From Deltaproteobacteria bacterium (lineage in GTDB: Bacteria; Myxococcota_A; UBA9160; UBA6930): DNA of 64,000 bases. The DNA is taken from positions 159,921-223,920 of the forward strand of contig VGRF01000001.1 in NCBI GenBank assembly GCA_016875395.1, in the 5' to 3' direction. The notes beneath the pieces are model-generated. The model was not told where the DNA came from. It searched no databases and was given only the letters and a program-made list of their open reading frames with translations. Numbering within the stretch: position 1 is the first letter of the stretch; every line of letters begins with the position of its first letter. The position numbers were made by a program, and so were the translations under genes. Below, piece after piece: positions 24,050-51,284 of this stretch.

Positions 24050-25474
24050 CTACGGCCGATCCGGCACGTCGATGCCCAGCTCGACGATGCGCTTTCGCAG
24101 GGTGTTGCGGTTGATGCCGAGCAGCTCGGCGGCGCGCAGCTGATTGCCTCCGGTCCGCGCGAGCGCAGCCTCGATCAGCGGCTTCTCGACGCGCGAGAGC
24201 AGGGCCGCATGCACGTCGGCGGGCGCGCCCGAGTCGAGAGCGGCCTCGGTCTCGGCGCGGACCAGCGCTTCGAGCGACAGCGCGGTGCGCTCGCCCGCGC
24301 CGCCGCCATCGAGGAACGCGAAGTCCTCGGCACCGATCACTTCGGCGGCAACGAGCACGAGCGCGCGCTTGATCGCGTTCTCGAGCTCGCGCACGTTGCC
24401 CGGCCAGGCGTGACGCACGAGCTTCTCGATCGCGTCCGGCGAGATCACGTGCATGCCGCCCGTCAGCTCCGCGTCGTAGCGCGCGAGGAAGTGGTCGATC
24501 AGCGGGGGAATGTCCTCGCGGCGCTCGCGCAGCGGCGGTACCGCGATCGGCACGACCCGCAGGCGGTAGAGCAGATCCTCGCGGAATGCGCCGCTCGCCA
24601 CGGCCGCATCGAGGTCGCGATGCGTGGCTGCGAGGATGCGCACGTTCACCGCTTCGGCGCGGCGCCCGCCCACCGAAGTCACCTCTCCCGTCTGCAACAC
24701 CCGTAACAACTTCGCCTGCAGGTCGACCGGCATGTCGCCGATCTCGTCGAGGAAGAGCGTGCCGCCGCTCGCCTCGCGGAAGCGGCCCGCGCGCGCCTCG
24801 ACCGCGCCGGTGAACGCGCCGCGCTCGTGGCCGAACAGCTCACTCTCGAGCAGGTCGCGCGGGATCGCGGCTGCGTTCACCGCCACGAACGGCGCGGCTG
24901 CGCGCGAGCTCGCGGCGTGGATCGCACGCGCGATCAGCTCCTTGCCAGTGCCGCTCTCTCCCGTCACGAGCACCGGCACGTCGGAGCGCGCCACGCGGCC
25001 GATGGTCTTGAACACGTCGAGAAGCGCGCTGCTCTTGCCCACGAGCCGCTCGCTCGCCGGCGCGCCCTTGCCGAGCGCGCGGCGCAGGGCGCGCACCTCG
25101 GACTCGAGCGCGCGCGAGCGCAGCGCCTTCTCCACGAGCGCGAGCACTTCCTGCGTGCCGAAGGGCTTCGCGAGGTAGTCGAAAGCGCCGCGCTTCATCG
25201 CCTCGACGGCGTTCTCGAACGTGTTCTGCGCGGTGATGATCACGATCGCGGTGTCGCTGCCGACCGTGCGCGCGCGCTCGAGCAGATCGAGGCCGCTCGC
25301 GCCGGGCATGCGGATGTCGAAGAACGCGAGGTCGAAGCTCGCCTCGGTGAGCGCGCGCAGTGCGTCGTCGCCGTTCGCGACGTCGGTGACGGCGTGCCCG
25401 GCGCTCTCGAGCGTCTCGCGCAGCACGAAGCGGATCGACGGCTCGTCGTCGGCGATCAGGACGCGCGCACTCAC
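24050..25474 (-). CDS. NtrC-type sigma-54 response regulator
   Basis: The 474-residue protein has a receiver domain with phospho-site D53 (FFDIRMPG), an AAA+ domain with Walker A GESGTGKE (172-179), the sigma-54 loop GAFTGA (219-224) and GGTLFLDEIGDMP, and a Fis-type helix-turn-helix at the end (AAELLGINRNTLRKRI). The GTG start overlaps the kinase stop by GTGA. The closest description is NtrC of nitrogen control, but no glnA or glnB is in view, so the regulon is unproven. Confidence 0.93.
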   Translation of the reverse strand: MSARVLIADDEPSIRFVLRETLESAGHAVTDVANGDDALRALTEASFDLAFFDIRMPGASGLDLLERARTVGSDTAIVIITAQNTFENAVEAMKRGAFDYLAKPFGTQEVLALVEKALRSRALESEVRALRRALGKGAPASERLVGKSSALLDVFKTIGRVARSDVPVLVTGESGTGKELIARAIHAASSRAAAPFVAVNAAAIPRDLLESELFGHERGAFTGAVEARAGRFREASGGTLFLDEIGDMPVDLQAKLLRVLQTGEVTSVGGRRAEAVNVRILAATHRDLDAAVASGAFREDLLYRLRVVPIAVPPLRERREDIPPLIDHFLARYDAELTGGMHVISPDAIEKLVRHAWPGNVRELENAIKRALVLVAAEVIGAEDFAFLDGGGAGERTALSLEALVRAETEAALDSGAPADVHAALLSRVEKPLIEAALARTGGNQLRAAELLGINRNTLRKRIVELGIDVPDRP

Positions 25475-26550
25475 GAGGGCTTCCTCAGCGGCAGCGTGAC
25501 GCGCACGCTGGTCCCCACGTTCGGCTCCGACTCGAGATGCAGCGTGCCGCGGTGCTGCGCGATCCAGTAGTCCGCAACCGCGAGCCCGAGCCCCGTGCCG
25601 CCCGGGCGCGCGCTGAAGAACGGCGTCGTGGCTTGGCGCAGCTCGTCCGCGCTCATCCCGCGGCCGGTGTCGCGGATCCACACGGCGAGGGTCGGCAGCG
25701 GCTTGCCGTCATCGAGGGCGATGCGGTGATCGAGAGTCATGCGCGTCGTCACCGTGACTCTGCCCCCGCGGCCTTCGAGCGCCTGCAGCGCGTTCCGTAA
25801 CAAGTTGAGGAACACCTGGATCAGCCGGTCGGCGTCGGCCCCGAACTCCGGGATCGAGGGGTCGTAGGCGCGCACGATCTCGACGGCTTCGCCGAGGGGA
25901 TCGTGCGAGAGCAGCGCGAGCACGCCGTCGAGCACGCGGTGGATGTTCGTGGTCGCGAGCCGCAGCCTGTCGCGCCGCGCGAAGACCATGAAGTCGTCGA
26001 CGAGCGCCGCGATGCGCGTCGACTCGCGCACGATCAGCTCCGCGGTCTCGCGCGTCTTCGCGTCGCCCGCGCGCAGGCCGAGGATCTCGCCGGCGCCGCG
26101 AATGCCGCCGAGGGGATTCTTGATCTCGTGTGCGAGGCCGGCGGCGATGCGCCCGAACGCCTCGAAGCGCTCGCGCTCGGTCTCGAGCTGCGCGAGCCGG
26201 CGCTGCGCGGTCTGGTCGCGCAGCACCACGACCGCGCCCTCCGTCGCGCCCGACTCGGACTGCAGCGGCGACGCGCTCACGTCGAGCGGGATGCGCTCGC
26301 CGCGCTGCGGCTCGAGCTCGCAGTCCGCGGCCGAGATCGCCGCGCCGCGCGCCAGCACGCTGCGCGCAAGCTGCGCGACCGCGTGACGCGGCGGCACCAG
26401 CTCCTCGATCGCGCAGCCGAGCGCGGTCTCGCGCGAGCGCCCGAGCAGCCGGCACGCGACCGAGTTCAGCTCTTCGACGCGCCCCGCCGGCCCCACGACG
26501 ATGACGCCCGCGAGGATCGCTTCGAGCACGTCTGCGAGGTCGCGGCGCAT
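25471..26550 (-). CDS. NtrB-like PAS sensor histidine kinase
   Basis: The 359-residue soluble kinase has an N-terminal PAS domain (VLEAILAGVIVVGPAGRVEELNSVACRLLGRS), the phospho-acceptor H141 in GLAHEIKNPLGGIRGA, the N box FLNLLRNALQAL and G boxes DTGRGMSADEL and GGTGLGLAVADYW. No membrane segments are present, as in NtrB. It is paired with the NtrC-type regulator by a 4-bp overlap. The start at 26550 is set by the PAS N-terminus; an earlier in-frame ATG lies inside the palindromic repeat. Confidence 0.93.
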   Translation of the reverse strand: MRRDLADVLEAILAGVIVVGPAGRVEELNSVACRLLGRSRETALGCAIEELVPPRHAVAQLARSVLARGAAISAADCELEPQRGERIPLDVSASPLQSESGATEGAVVVLRDQTAQRRLAQLETERERFEAFGRIAAGLAHEIKNPLGGIRGAGEILGLRAGDAKTRETAELIVRESTRIAALVDDFMVFARRDRLRLATTNIHRVLDGVLALLSHDPLGEAVEIVRAYDPSIPEFGADADRLIQVFLNLLRNALQALEGRGGRVTVTTRMTLDHRIALDDGKPLPTLAVWIRDTGRGMSADELRQATTPFFSARPGGTGLGLAVADYWIAQHRGTLHLESEPNVGTSVRVTLPLRKPS

Positions 26551-26579
26551 AGGGGTACGACGATAGGGGCTGAGCCGAC

Positions 26580-26870
26580 GTGGGCGAGACGCTGGCGGGC
26601 GCGAGCGGACGAAAGCGCGCGCGTGCCCAGGGACGTTCCGCAAGAAAGTAAAGAAACCCCAGCTTTACTTTCTTGCGGAATGTCCCCGGGAGATGCGTTC
26701 CCGGGAAGCGTCTCTGGGAAGTGCTGCCGTGGGCGAGACGCCGGCGGACGTAAGCGCGCGCTTGACCAGGGACGTTGACCAGGGACGTTCCGCAAGTAAG
26801 TAAAGAAACTCCCGCTTTACTTTCTTGCGGAACGTCCTCGGGAAGTGCGTCCCCGGGAAGCGCGGCCGTC
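26580..26870. repeat. Tandem palindromic (REP/BIME-like) elements
   Basis: The 366-bp gap between the divergent kinase gene and moeA holds two related units of about 150 bp. Each contains a long palindrome: arms 26630-26653/26663-26686 (one mismatch in 24 bp, 9-nt loop) and arms 26782-26805/26815-26838 (two mismatches). Arms begin GGGACGTTCCGCAAG and end GTAAAG. The flanks GTGGGCGAGACGC and CCCGGGAAGCG are repeated too. No ORF of its own is seen. Confidence 0.85.
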
Positions 26871-26904
26871 CCCGACCGCGCTCCCCGCCCGCGCCTCATC
26901 GCGA

Positions 26905-26910
26905 TACGTT
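26905..26910 (+). promoter_or_regulatory. -10-like TACGTT directly before moeA
   Basis: TACGTT ends 6 nt before the ATG at 26917 and there is no Shine-Dalgarno, suggesting a leaderless moeA transcript starting just past the palindromic repeats. Confidence 0.3.
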
Positions 26911-26916
26911 GCCGCG

Positions 26917-28149
26917 ATGCGCACCGGCATCAGCGTTCCCGAAGCGCGCGCGATCGTGCTCGAACAGGCTCACGCGCTCGCGCCCGAGATCGTGGCGTTC
27001 GAGGCGGCGCTCGGGCGCGTGCTCGCGGAGGAGGTGCGCTCGGATCGCACGCTGCCCCCCGCGGACTGCTCGGCGATGGACGGCTATGCGGTGCGTGGCG
27101 CGGATGTCGCCGATGCGGGCGCGAAGCTGCACATCGCCTACGAGGTCGCCGCCGGCGGGGCGGCGCCGCGCGCGCTCGCGGCGGGCGAGGCGGCGCGCAT
27201 CTTCACCGGCGCACCGATTCCGCGCGGCGCCGACACCGTGGTGCGCCAAGAGGACACCGAGGCGCGCGCGGATGAGGTGCGCGTGCTCGTGTCCGTTCCG
27301 CGCGGCGAGAGCGTGCGCGCTTCGGGCGAGGACGTGCGGGCGGGCGATCTCGTGCTCAGCGCGGGTGTGCGCGTGAGCCCCGCGGAAGTGGGGATGCTCG
27401 CGTCGCTCGGGCGCACGCTCGTCCACGTGCACCGCCGGCCCACGGTCGCGGTGCTCTCGGGCGGCGACGAGCTCGTCGAGCCGCACGAGACGCCGACGAA
27501 CGGGCGCATCGTCTCGTCGAACGCCTACTCGATCGCTGCGCAATGCCTCGAAGCGGGCGCGCTTCCTAACAATCTCGGCATCGCGCGCGACACGCCCGCG
27601 GATCTCGAGCGGCTGCTCCGCGCGGGCCTCGGCGCGGACGTGCTGGTTTCGAGCGCGGGCGTCTCGGTCGGAGATCACGACCACGTCCGCCCCACGCTCG
27701 AGAAGCTCGGCGTGCGCCTCTTCTTCTGGGGCGTCGAGATGAAGCCGGGTTACCCGATCACGTTCGGCCGCGCCCAGGACGGCGAGGGCGCGTTCGTGTT
27801 CGGTCTCCCTGGCAATCCCGTCTCGGCGATGGTCACGTTCGAGTTGTTCGTGAGGCCCTTGTTGTTACGACTCGGCGGACGCAGCGACCTCGCGCGGCCC
27901 GAAATCTCCGCGGTCTGTGGCGAGCGCTTCAGCAAGAAGCCTGGCCGCGAGCACTACGTGCGCGTGTTCCTCGAGAAGCGCGCGAGCGGAGACGTCGTCG
28001 CGCGCACGACGGGCAACCAGAGCAGCGGCGTCCTGCGCTCGATGACCCTCGCCGACGGCCTGCTCGTCTTCCCCGCCGACGCGAGCGAGATTGCCGACGG
28101 TGGGCGCGCGCGCGTGATCGTGCTCGACGCGAGCTTCTTCGCGCGATGA
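26917..28149 (+). CDS. moeA: Molybdopterin molybdenumtransferase
   Basis: MoeA inserts molybdate into adenylylated molybdopterin. The 410-residue protein shows ADCSAMDGYAVRGAD, IFTGAPIPRGADTVVRQED, VAVLSGGDELV, SAGVSVGDHDHVRPTLEKLG, KPGYPITFG, FGLPGNPVSAMVTFELFV and a C-terminal GNQSSGVLRSMTLADGL. It overlaps mobA by ATGA. MsrP at 39.8 kb is a local molybdoenzyme that would use the cofactor. Confidence 0.96.
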   Translation: MRTGISVPEARAIVLEQAHALAPEIVAFEAALGRVLAEEVRSDRTLPPADCSAMDGYAVRGADVADAGAKLHIAYEVAAGGAAPRALAAGEAARIFTGAPIPRGADTVVRQEDTEARADEVRVLVSVPRGESVRASGEDVRAGDLVLSAGVRVSPAEVGMLASLGRTLVHVHRRPTVAVLSGGDELVEPHETPTNGRIVSSNAYSIAAQCLEAGALPNNLGIARDTPADLERLLRAGLGADVLVSSAGVSVGDHDHVRPTLEKLGVRLFFWGVEMKPGYPITFGRAQDGEGAFVFGLPGNPVSAMVTFELFVRPLLLRLGGRSDLARPEISAVCGERFSKKPGREHYVRVFLEKRASGDVVARTTGNQSSGVLRSMTLADGLLVFPADASEIADGGRARVIVLDASFFAR

Positions 28150-37511: not shown

Positions 37512-37591
37512 GGGTCCTCCGCGCTCGCGCGTGAGACATTTCGGCCGGGCCGAAATGATCGGCCTCGCGGCGCGCAGTCTAGGCAGCGGCT

Positions 37592-51230: not shown

Positions 51231-51284
51231 CGCGCACCTGGGACGTACGCGCACCAAAGCGCGCACCTGGGACGTACGTGCACC
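51231..51284 (+). repeat. Tandem 24-bp repeat between convergent genes
   Basis: GCGCACCTGGGACGTACG plus YGCACC occurs twice with one difference, about 29 bp apart, and fills the 64-bp gap between the tesB stop and the end of the TauD gene. GGGACGT also begins the arms of the 26.6-kb palindromes. Confidence 0.7.

Follow-up and report, generated by a model that had tools for sequence, protein, structure and literature searches.

The window, the whole 64,000-nt stretch of DNA that was analysed, is part of contig C1 in an assembly of 4.51 Mb comprising 96 contigs. A sensor histidine kinase gene and moeA diverge from a spacer that bears two palindromes, and these palindromes lie within ~80 nt of both gene starts (Table 1). 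Of the names originally given to the neighbours, moeA was upheld by its three Pfam domains, while ntrB is a likely name only, because the kinase scored 179 of 240 bits against the NR(II) model and so missed the cut-off.

Table 1. Positions of the palindromic elements, associated duplications and neighbouring genes within the window.
Feature	Position	Strand	Details
ntrB-like sensor histidine kinase gene (left neighbour)	25471..26550, start 26550	-	PAS, HisKA, HATPase_c
Flank of copy 1, recurring ahead of copy 2	26567..26637	+	repeat comparison
Palindromic element, copy 1	26628..26688, core 26630-26686	+	arm GGGACGTTCCGCAAGAAAGTAAAG, 9-nt loop
Second copy of copy-1 flank	26716..26776	+	38 identities within 51-nt stretch
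13-bp tandem duplication, GACCAGGGACGTT x2	26764-26776/26777-26789	+	outer edge of copy 2, from sequence
Palindromic element, copy 2	26780..26840, core 26782-26838	+	9-nt loop
moeA (right neighbour)	26917..28149, ATG 26917	+	three Pfam matches to MoeA domains, each above cut-off

The near-perfect palindromes with a 9-nt loop that had been described from the sequence alone were real. In copy 1 the inverted repeat spanned 26626-26653 and 26663-26690, with 28-nt arms that were 93% complementary; in copy 2 it spanned 26783-26805 and 26815-26837, with 23-nt arms that were 96% complementary. When folded as single-stranded DNA (+ strand), copy 1 reached -28.3 kcal/mol (z = -9.07) and copy 2 reached -25.0 kcal/mol (z = -6.73), and none of 200 shuffles folded as well in either case; folded as RNA, the same strand gave -47.7 and -39.8 kcal/mol respectively. 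Arm position 16 was an A-T pair in copy 1 and a T.T mismatch in copy 2. Over 87 nt the two copies were 90% identical at an offset of 152 nt, which agreed roughly with the units of ~150 bp that had been predicted, but the repeated upstream stretches of the spacer were spaced at 149 and 139. The tandem unit consists of the element together with its upstream host flank, forming an imperfect tandem of ~150 bp.

The original prediction likened these units to dispersed repeats, and further copies were indeed present in the genome: a 15-mer of the arm occurred exactly 62 times, against 0 occurrences of its reversed control, and pairing of the arms produced 35 palindromes plus some single arms. The palindromes at C2:24 and C39:30469 were counted once on account of 127 identical contig-end bases, leaving 34 of the 35 in use; these stretches (C2:1-127 and the end of C39, or L003 and L045), palindrome included, reflect an overlap in the assembly or else a duplication of recent date. 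All 34 conformed to a single loop-oriented consensus of ~61 bp, CGGGGACGTTCCGCAAGTAAGTAAAG - (AAACTCC.G) - CTTTACTTTCTTGCGGAACGTCCCCG, with the head CGGGGACGTT. The loop was 8-10 nt long in 29 copies and 15-75 nt in five. At the borders, position -2 was C in 33/34 and position +2 was G in 33/34; strong conservation ended 2 nt outside the palindromes, and the best outer columns, -13 G and +15 C (24/34 each), may weakly echo the GGGAC head. Position 16 of the arm was Watson-Crick paired in eight copies, compared with 28-34 for every other arm position, and its five commonest states were T.T (15), T-A (5), C.T (4), A-T (3) and A.A (3). Covariation between the arms was slight (position 24 changed from G-C to C-G in 2/34) and the stem may therefore persist through recent copying alone.

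According to a rough codon-usage gene caller, 28 of the 34 copies were situated between two predicted genes, of which 17 pairs were co-directional, 7 convergent and 4 divergent; two copies had one neighbour in view and four overlapped a predicted ORF. Among the six tandem pairs inspected, the flank was clearly duplicated in four (C1, C7, C18 and C35), slightly in C26 (17/18 nt) and not at all in C10. Since host flank was clearly duplicated in four of the six, tandems probably form after arrival of the element. Beyond this genome, a scan with GGGACGTTCCGCAAGNAAGTAAAG of a contig collection that may lack the nearest records produced 0 matches, and the exact 15-mer arm was found in one of 59 relatives, as a single copy with no partner arm in the stretch inspected; with the relatives searched without mismatches, the family was found in the window's genome only. 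Four Rfam matches, all to microRNA or sRNA models, fell far below gathering scores and were rejected as hairpin look-alikes. A further palindrome was split by an IS5-like element (a label applied by eye) with 17-bp ends GAGCCTATCCGAAAACC, seen at the starts of C23 (L035) and C30 (L040); TAA occurred on each contig-end flank and joining the flanks restored an intact palindrome. As the ends of this IS that were read (10 of 20) sit at TAA or TTA, its choice of a palindrome as target may reflect the scarcity of TAA in a GC-rich genome.

The dispersal of the family bears on the idea that the palindromes are a local hairpin under selection, acting on ntrB and/or moeA as an attenuator or as the site of a regulator. 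Their position between divergent starts and their strong RNA fold speak for such a site, but the same element recurs in many other parts of the genome, and the scans returned neither terminator-like nor promoter-like patterns. The promoter scan, of 26500-26960, addressed the sigma-70-like type alone and to that extent left unsupported the earlier statement that the gap holds the promoters of ntrB and moeA. The same spacer was then compared across 13 same-family relatives, all of which had moeA and 10 of which had a kinase match on the moeA locus. At four of these (L212, L215, L216 and L217) the kinase and moeA were adjacent across a spacer of ~148-320 bp that contained no palindrome; L214 had a 694-bp spacer without a window-family palindrome, and at the other five ~1.1 kb separated the kinase and moeA matches. 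With exact arms of at least 14 nt and a loop of up to 40, no inverted repeat was detected in 12 of the 13 loci, and the single one at L214 fell outside the kinase-moeA spacer. The comparison of the gap that had been recommended thus demonstrated the absence of the palindrome from four adjacent-pair spacers, but the same-family spacers (no same-genus genome being among those compared) were too diverged for an exact empty site to be placed. Insertion of the palindrome likely occurred in the window's lineage, and a purely local regulatory hairpin is highly improbable.

A related view is that the element was mobile in origin and was later co-opted, such that it now shapes the moeA or ntrB mRNA or provides a site for a host protein. 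Proximity to both starts and strong folding are compatible with this; however, no test that was run points to a function, and the T.T mismatch, being present in copy 2 and absent from copy 1, fits drift. Co-option is therefore considered unlikely, and an effect of the palindromes on ntrB or moeA is possible, with little expected.

Mobile elements of another kind were also considered. Long inverted arms and small size fit MITEs derived from classical DDE transposons, in which case the palindromes would be joined ends of an IS that moves by cut and paste, and the IS with GAGCCTATCCGAAAACC ends is plentiful here, with 20 ends in the genome at up to one mismatch. However, direct repeats of at least 4 nt flanked 0/34 palindromes at offsets 0-6, and 2- and 3-nt edge repeats at offsets 0-2 were within the range of shuffles, with no excess over them. 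The IS ends are unlike the arms, those that were read (10/20) sitting at TAA or TTA, and the gene that does lie between window-family repeats is a RAYT, as described below. A MITE origin is accordingly very unlikely.

Applied to the window's genome, the Pfam Y1_Tnp model identified a single gene, on contig C6, set among a different repeat family. Taken alone, this suggested that the palindromes had no cognate RAYT, a reading that was dropped when a search of the genome with the C6 protein revealed a gene at C30:6150-6947 (E = 5e-36). This gene is flanked by window-family palindromes at C30:6011-6068 and C30:7071-7128; a RAYT gene with the same flanks as the palindromes, proposed from the outset as the thing to look for, is therefore present. 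Residues H60, H62 and Y119, corresponding to the HUH motif and tyrosine, were invariant across 24 aligned proteins including that of C30, and Y119 is presumed to be the catalytic tyrosine by reference to known RAYTs. The predicted structure had a mean pLDDT of 90.2, and its single match in the PDB at E ≤ 0.001 was 4er8 (14% identity), a RAYT in complex with a REP hairpin. The C30 protein is termed a diverged RAYT relative because it scored below the curated cut-offs of both Pfam Y1_Tnp (17.5 of 23 bits) and NCBIfam (29.2 of 80). Towards its C-terminus, HTH_23 matched residues 236-270 (E = 7e-4) beneath the Pfam cut-off (19.8 of 24.6 bits), and the model predicted helices over 198-277; the protein likely carries a C-terminal HTH. 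By its position, the C30 RAYT is likely to be the cognate of the window palindromes, which are best read as its non-autonomous products.

The search with the C6 protein also recovered a second RAYT at C25:61638-62408 (E = 2e-22); besides C30, C25 and itself, it returned one match at chance level (E = 0.54). The C6 RAYT is placed amid GGGACGTACGTGCA repeats (99 matches at up to one mismatch, control 0) and the C25 RAYT amid TTTCGGCCSGGCCGAAA repeats (107 matches at up to three mismatches, control 1), although the latter pattern is nearly self-complementary, such that one palindrome may count on both strands. Both proteins passed the Pfam cut-off (24.5 and 32.6) and missed that of NCBIfam (41.3 and 48.7); a PDB sequence search with the C6 protein gave no match. 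Within the window itself, two direct units of the C6-RAYT repeat family occur at 51240-51282 (GGGACGTACGYGCA, 29-bp spacing) and one unit of the C25-RAYT repeat family at 37535-37559 (GACATTTCGGCCGGGCCGAAATG). In a tree of 41 RAYTs, branches were long and the placement of the three from the window's genome was unsettled. When Y1_Tnp was applied to 60 genomes at once, even the C6 gene was missed, and so misses by this model carry little meaning.

These associations are relevant to the suggestion that the repeats are bound by some other system, such as CRISPR or a replication or segregation site, with no transposase involved. A hairpin that is dispersed, conserved and mostly intergenic might be so explained, but no Rfam family reached its gathering score, a RAYT lies between two copies, and two more RAYTs of this genome are surrounded by repeats of other families; an explanation of this sort is barely credible.

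Of the 79 genomes from the order, 19 encode RAYT homologues, the window's genome being one of them. Many of the 23 RAYT loci inspected (with the window genome's three among them) were bracketed by inverted repeats starting GGGGAC, which diverged gene by gene after that start; at some loci the repeats started with GGGGCCGG or GGGGTCGGG instead. Relatives from named genomes were the best 80 of 467 confirmed, and these are non-independent, in that several are the same contigs as loci already among the genomes of the order, some come from one genome, and many are metagenome bins. For this set plus the window genome's three, less 7/83 dropped for short flanks, the inverted similarity of one flank to the other exceeded the 99% level of swapped flanks at 38 of 76 loci and did not do so at 38; a score of 110 was reached by one swapped-flank pair, an outcome probably due to arms common to some of the relatives.

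The orientation of the head was counted in 73 of the best 80 of 467 relatives, seven being dropped for short flanks. GGGACG faced the gene within 150 nt upstream in 56/73, CGTCCC occurred within 250 nt downstream in 55/73, and both sides were so marked in 47/73. In the opposite orientation the head was seen upstream in 0, downstream in 6 and on both sides in 0 of the same 73, while distal control stretches contained it in 0/59 and 2/36. When the published consensus was compared with this head upstream of the RAYT (77 of the best 80 of 467 relatives, three with short flanks left out), GGGGWSAS was found in 3/77 and GGGACG in 60/77. Heads on both sides were seen, among others, at loci labelled Myxococcota, Thermodesulfobacteriota, Chlorobiota, Elusimicrobiota, Chloroflexota and Actinomycetota; the sole Planctomycetota row of the 41-RAYT tree was not among these loci.

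The palindrome pattern GGGGACGT-N15-45-ACGTCCCC was present in 14/79 genomes, and the reversed control was present in 5/79, once in each; single matches therefore mean little. In two genomes (G011 and G031), dimers located elsewhere in the genome matched the inverted repeats of the RAYT itself, and in two others, G035 with 34 dimers and G066 with 3, the inspected RAYT flanks matched none. A second RAYT in G035 was cut off by a contig end, and the relevant transposase may be absent from that bin. The 34 dimers of G035 (e.g., L219) are GGGGACGTTCCTGAAGGCAACAAAGGCAAC-like; in the listed ones the head and the edge are constant, and the arms vary in their interior. In G004, a hairpin at L113:148-235 has 42-bp exact arms, a 4-nt loop and ends that nearly match those of a RAYT ~1.2 kb away, and is an almost perfect fused-ends element.

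Very probably, then, the palindrome is a non-autonomous mobile element of ~61 bp, made of two TIRs back to back around a loop and moved by the C30 RAYT. The movement itself, the cutting site, the single-strand route and the order of events can be put forward as follows. The palindrome would fold when its DNA is single-stranded, for example on the lagging-strand template, and the C30 RAYT, as a single-strand HUH/Tyr enzyme, would recognise it by the GGGACG head and the private arm, with the mid-stem mismatch perhaps read as well. Tyr119 would cut at the edge of the element, and the cut strand would be joined to DNA at another site, in most cases between genes, with no long duplication of the target; that the palindromes are not flanked by longer target duplications fits such a route. 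In the ntrB-moeA spacer, one element would have arrived and would later have been duplicated in tandem with host flank. For E. coli TnpAREP, the available text of PMC8266576 describes cutting in which the tag and a mid-stem bulge or mismatch matter, while group 3 TnpAREPs have perfect stems and a mismatch impairs cutting by one of them; as group 3 repeats are perfect palindromes, a role for the mismatch in the window family is, by analogy, a guess.

On a wider scale, it is somewhat favoured that group-1 (subclass 2.1) RAYTs form a broad mobilising class, distinguished by a GGGACG head and private arms, whose fused ends spread as hairpins, with three such systems represented here; the third system of the window's genome has a shortened head, GGACGTT/GGACATT. 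If this were true, three RAYT systems would exist side by side in one genome, each with its own transposase. As it stands, the genome combines a diverged RAYT and its own palindrome population with two more RAYT-repeat pairs, and the cognate C30 gene was missed by Pfam at its cut-off, such that a sister RAYT was needed as the query. Work on RAYT cutting has dealt with groups 2 and 3 and the GTAG tag, as presented in the available text of PMC8266576. GGGACG is an easily recognised tag, and the natural combinations of head and arm could be used to probe how RAYTs choose their DNA; these systems also offer a lead on the role of the TIR-bearing RAYT branch.

Among known systems, GTAG-tagged REP/BIME elements were ruled out because the unpaired GTAG tag was absent: GTAG or CTAC occurred within 12 nt of a palindrome end in 1/34 copies and not at all in the consensus arm. 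The original comparison with REP/BIME elements mobilised by RAYTs therefore survives in respect of dispersed palindromes with a linked RAYT, but the repeats are TIR dimers rather than GTAG-tagged. REPINs go with group 2/3 RAYTs. Like REPINs (as described in the available part of PMC8049555), the window repeats are inverted pairs with a variable spacer, dispersed and non-autonomous, with a RAYT that is cognate by position; unlike them, the arm has no GTAG tag, and the single arm GGGACGTTCCGCAAG... has no hairpin of its own, forming in the consensus a loop-less imperfect palindrome only. CGTC-tagged REPs resemble the window family in that the reverse complement of its head is CGTCCC, but according to the available text of PMC3733652 their tag is unpaired and they have no dedicated transposase, whereas in the window family the motif forms base pairs within the stem and there is a linked RAYT; this class was ruled out also. 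The C30 RAYT shares its predicted fold and catalytic residues with E. coli TnpAREP (PMC8266576, available text; 4er8), differing in its structural identity of 14%, its extra C-terminal domain and its other tag.

The GGGACG head was not described in the open-licence literature searched, although Figure 9 of PMC3733652 may hold such heads, and titles and the beginnings of abstracts among the papers listed there yielded no work on RAYTs of Myxococcota with such repeats. RAYT subclass 2.1, equivalent to RAYT group 1, is characterised in the available text of PMC6006769 by a long protein with a C-terminal HTH and by a tie to TIRYTs, the equation of TIRYT with subclass 2.1 being tentative; according to that text, the surroundings of subclass 2.1 genes are free of REP-like sequences. 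The C30 RAYT is similarly long, with a likely C-terminal HTH, but has a dispersed palindrome family, two members of which are around the gene. In the TIRYT or TIRtron, as set out in the available text of PMC3733652, long inverted repeats whose head starts with GGGG enclose a RAYT-type gene, dimers of these repeats occur elsewhere in some genomes too, and GGGGWSAS is the consensus of some TIRs and not a strict rule. The C30 gene corresponds to this in lying between inverted repeats with a GGGG-starting head and in having dimers elsewhere. It departs from it in that the head of the window family is GGGGACG(T) rather than the published GGGGWSAS, that the gene has dimers to its left and right, and that the genome has three repeat families, each with its own RAYT. 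The nearest kind for the window repeats is accordingly TIR dimers of the TIRYT/TIRtron branch (RAYT subclass 2.1), with a head that differs from the published one.
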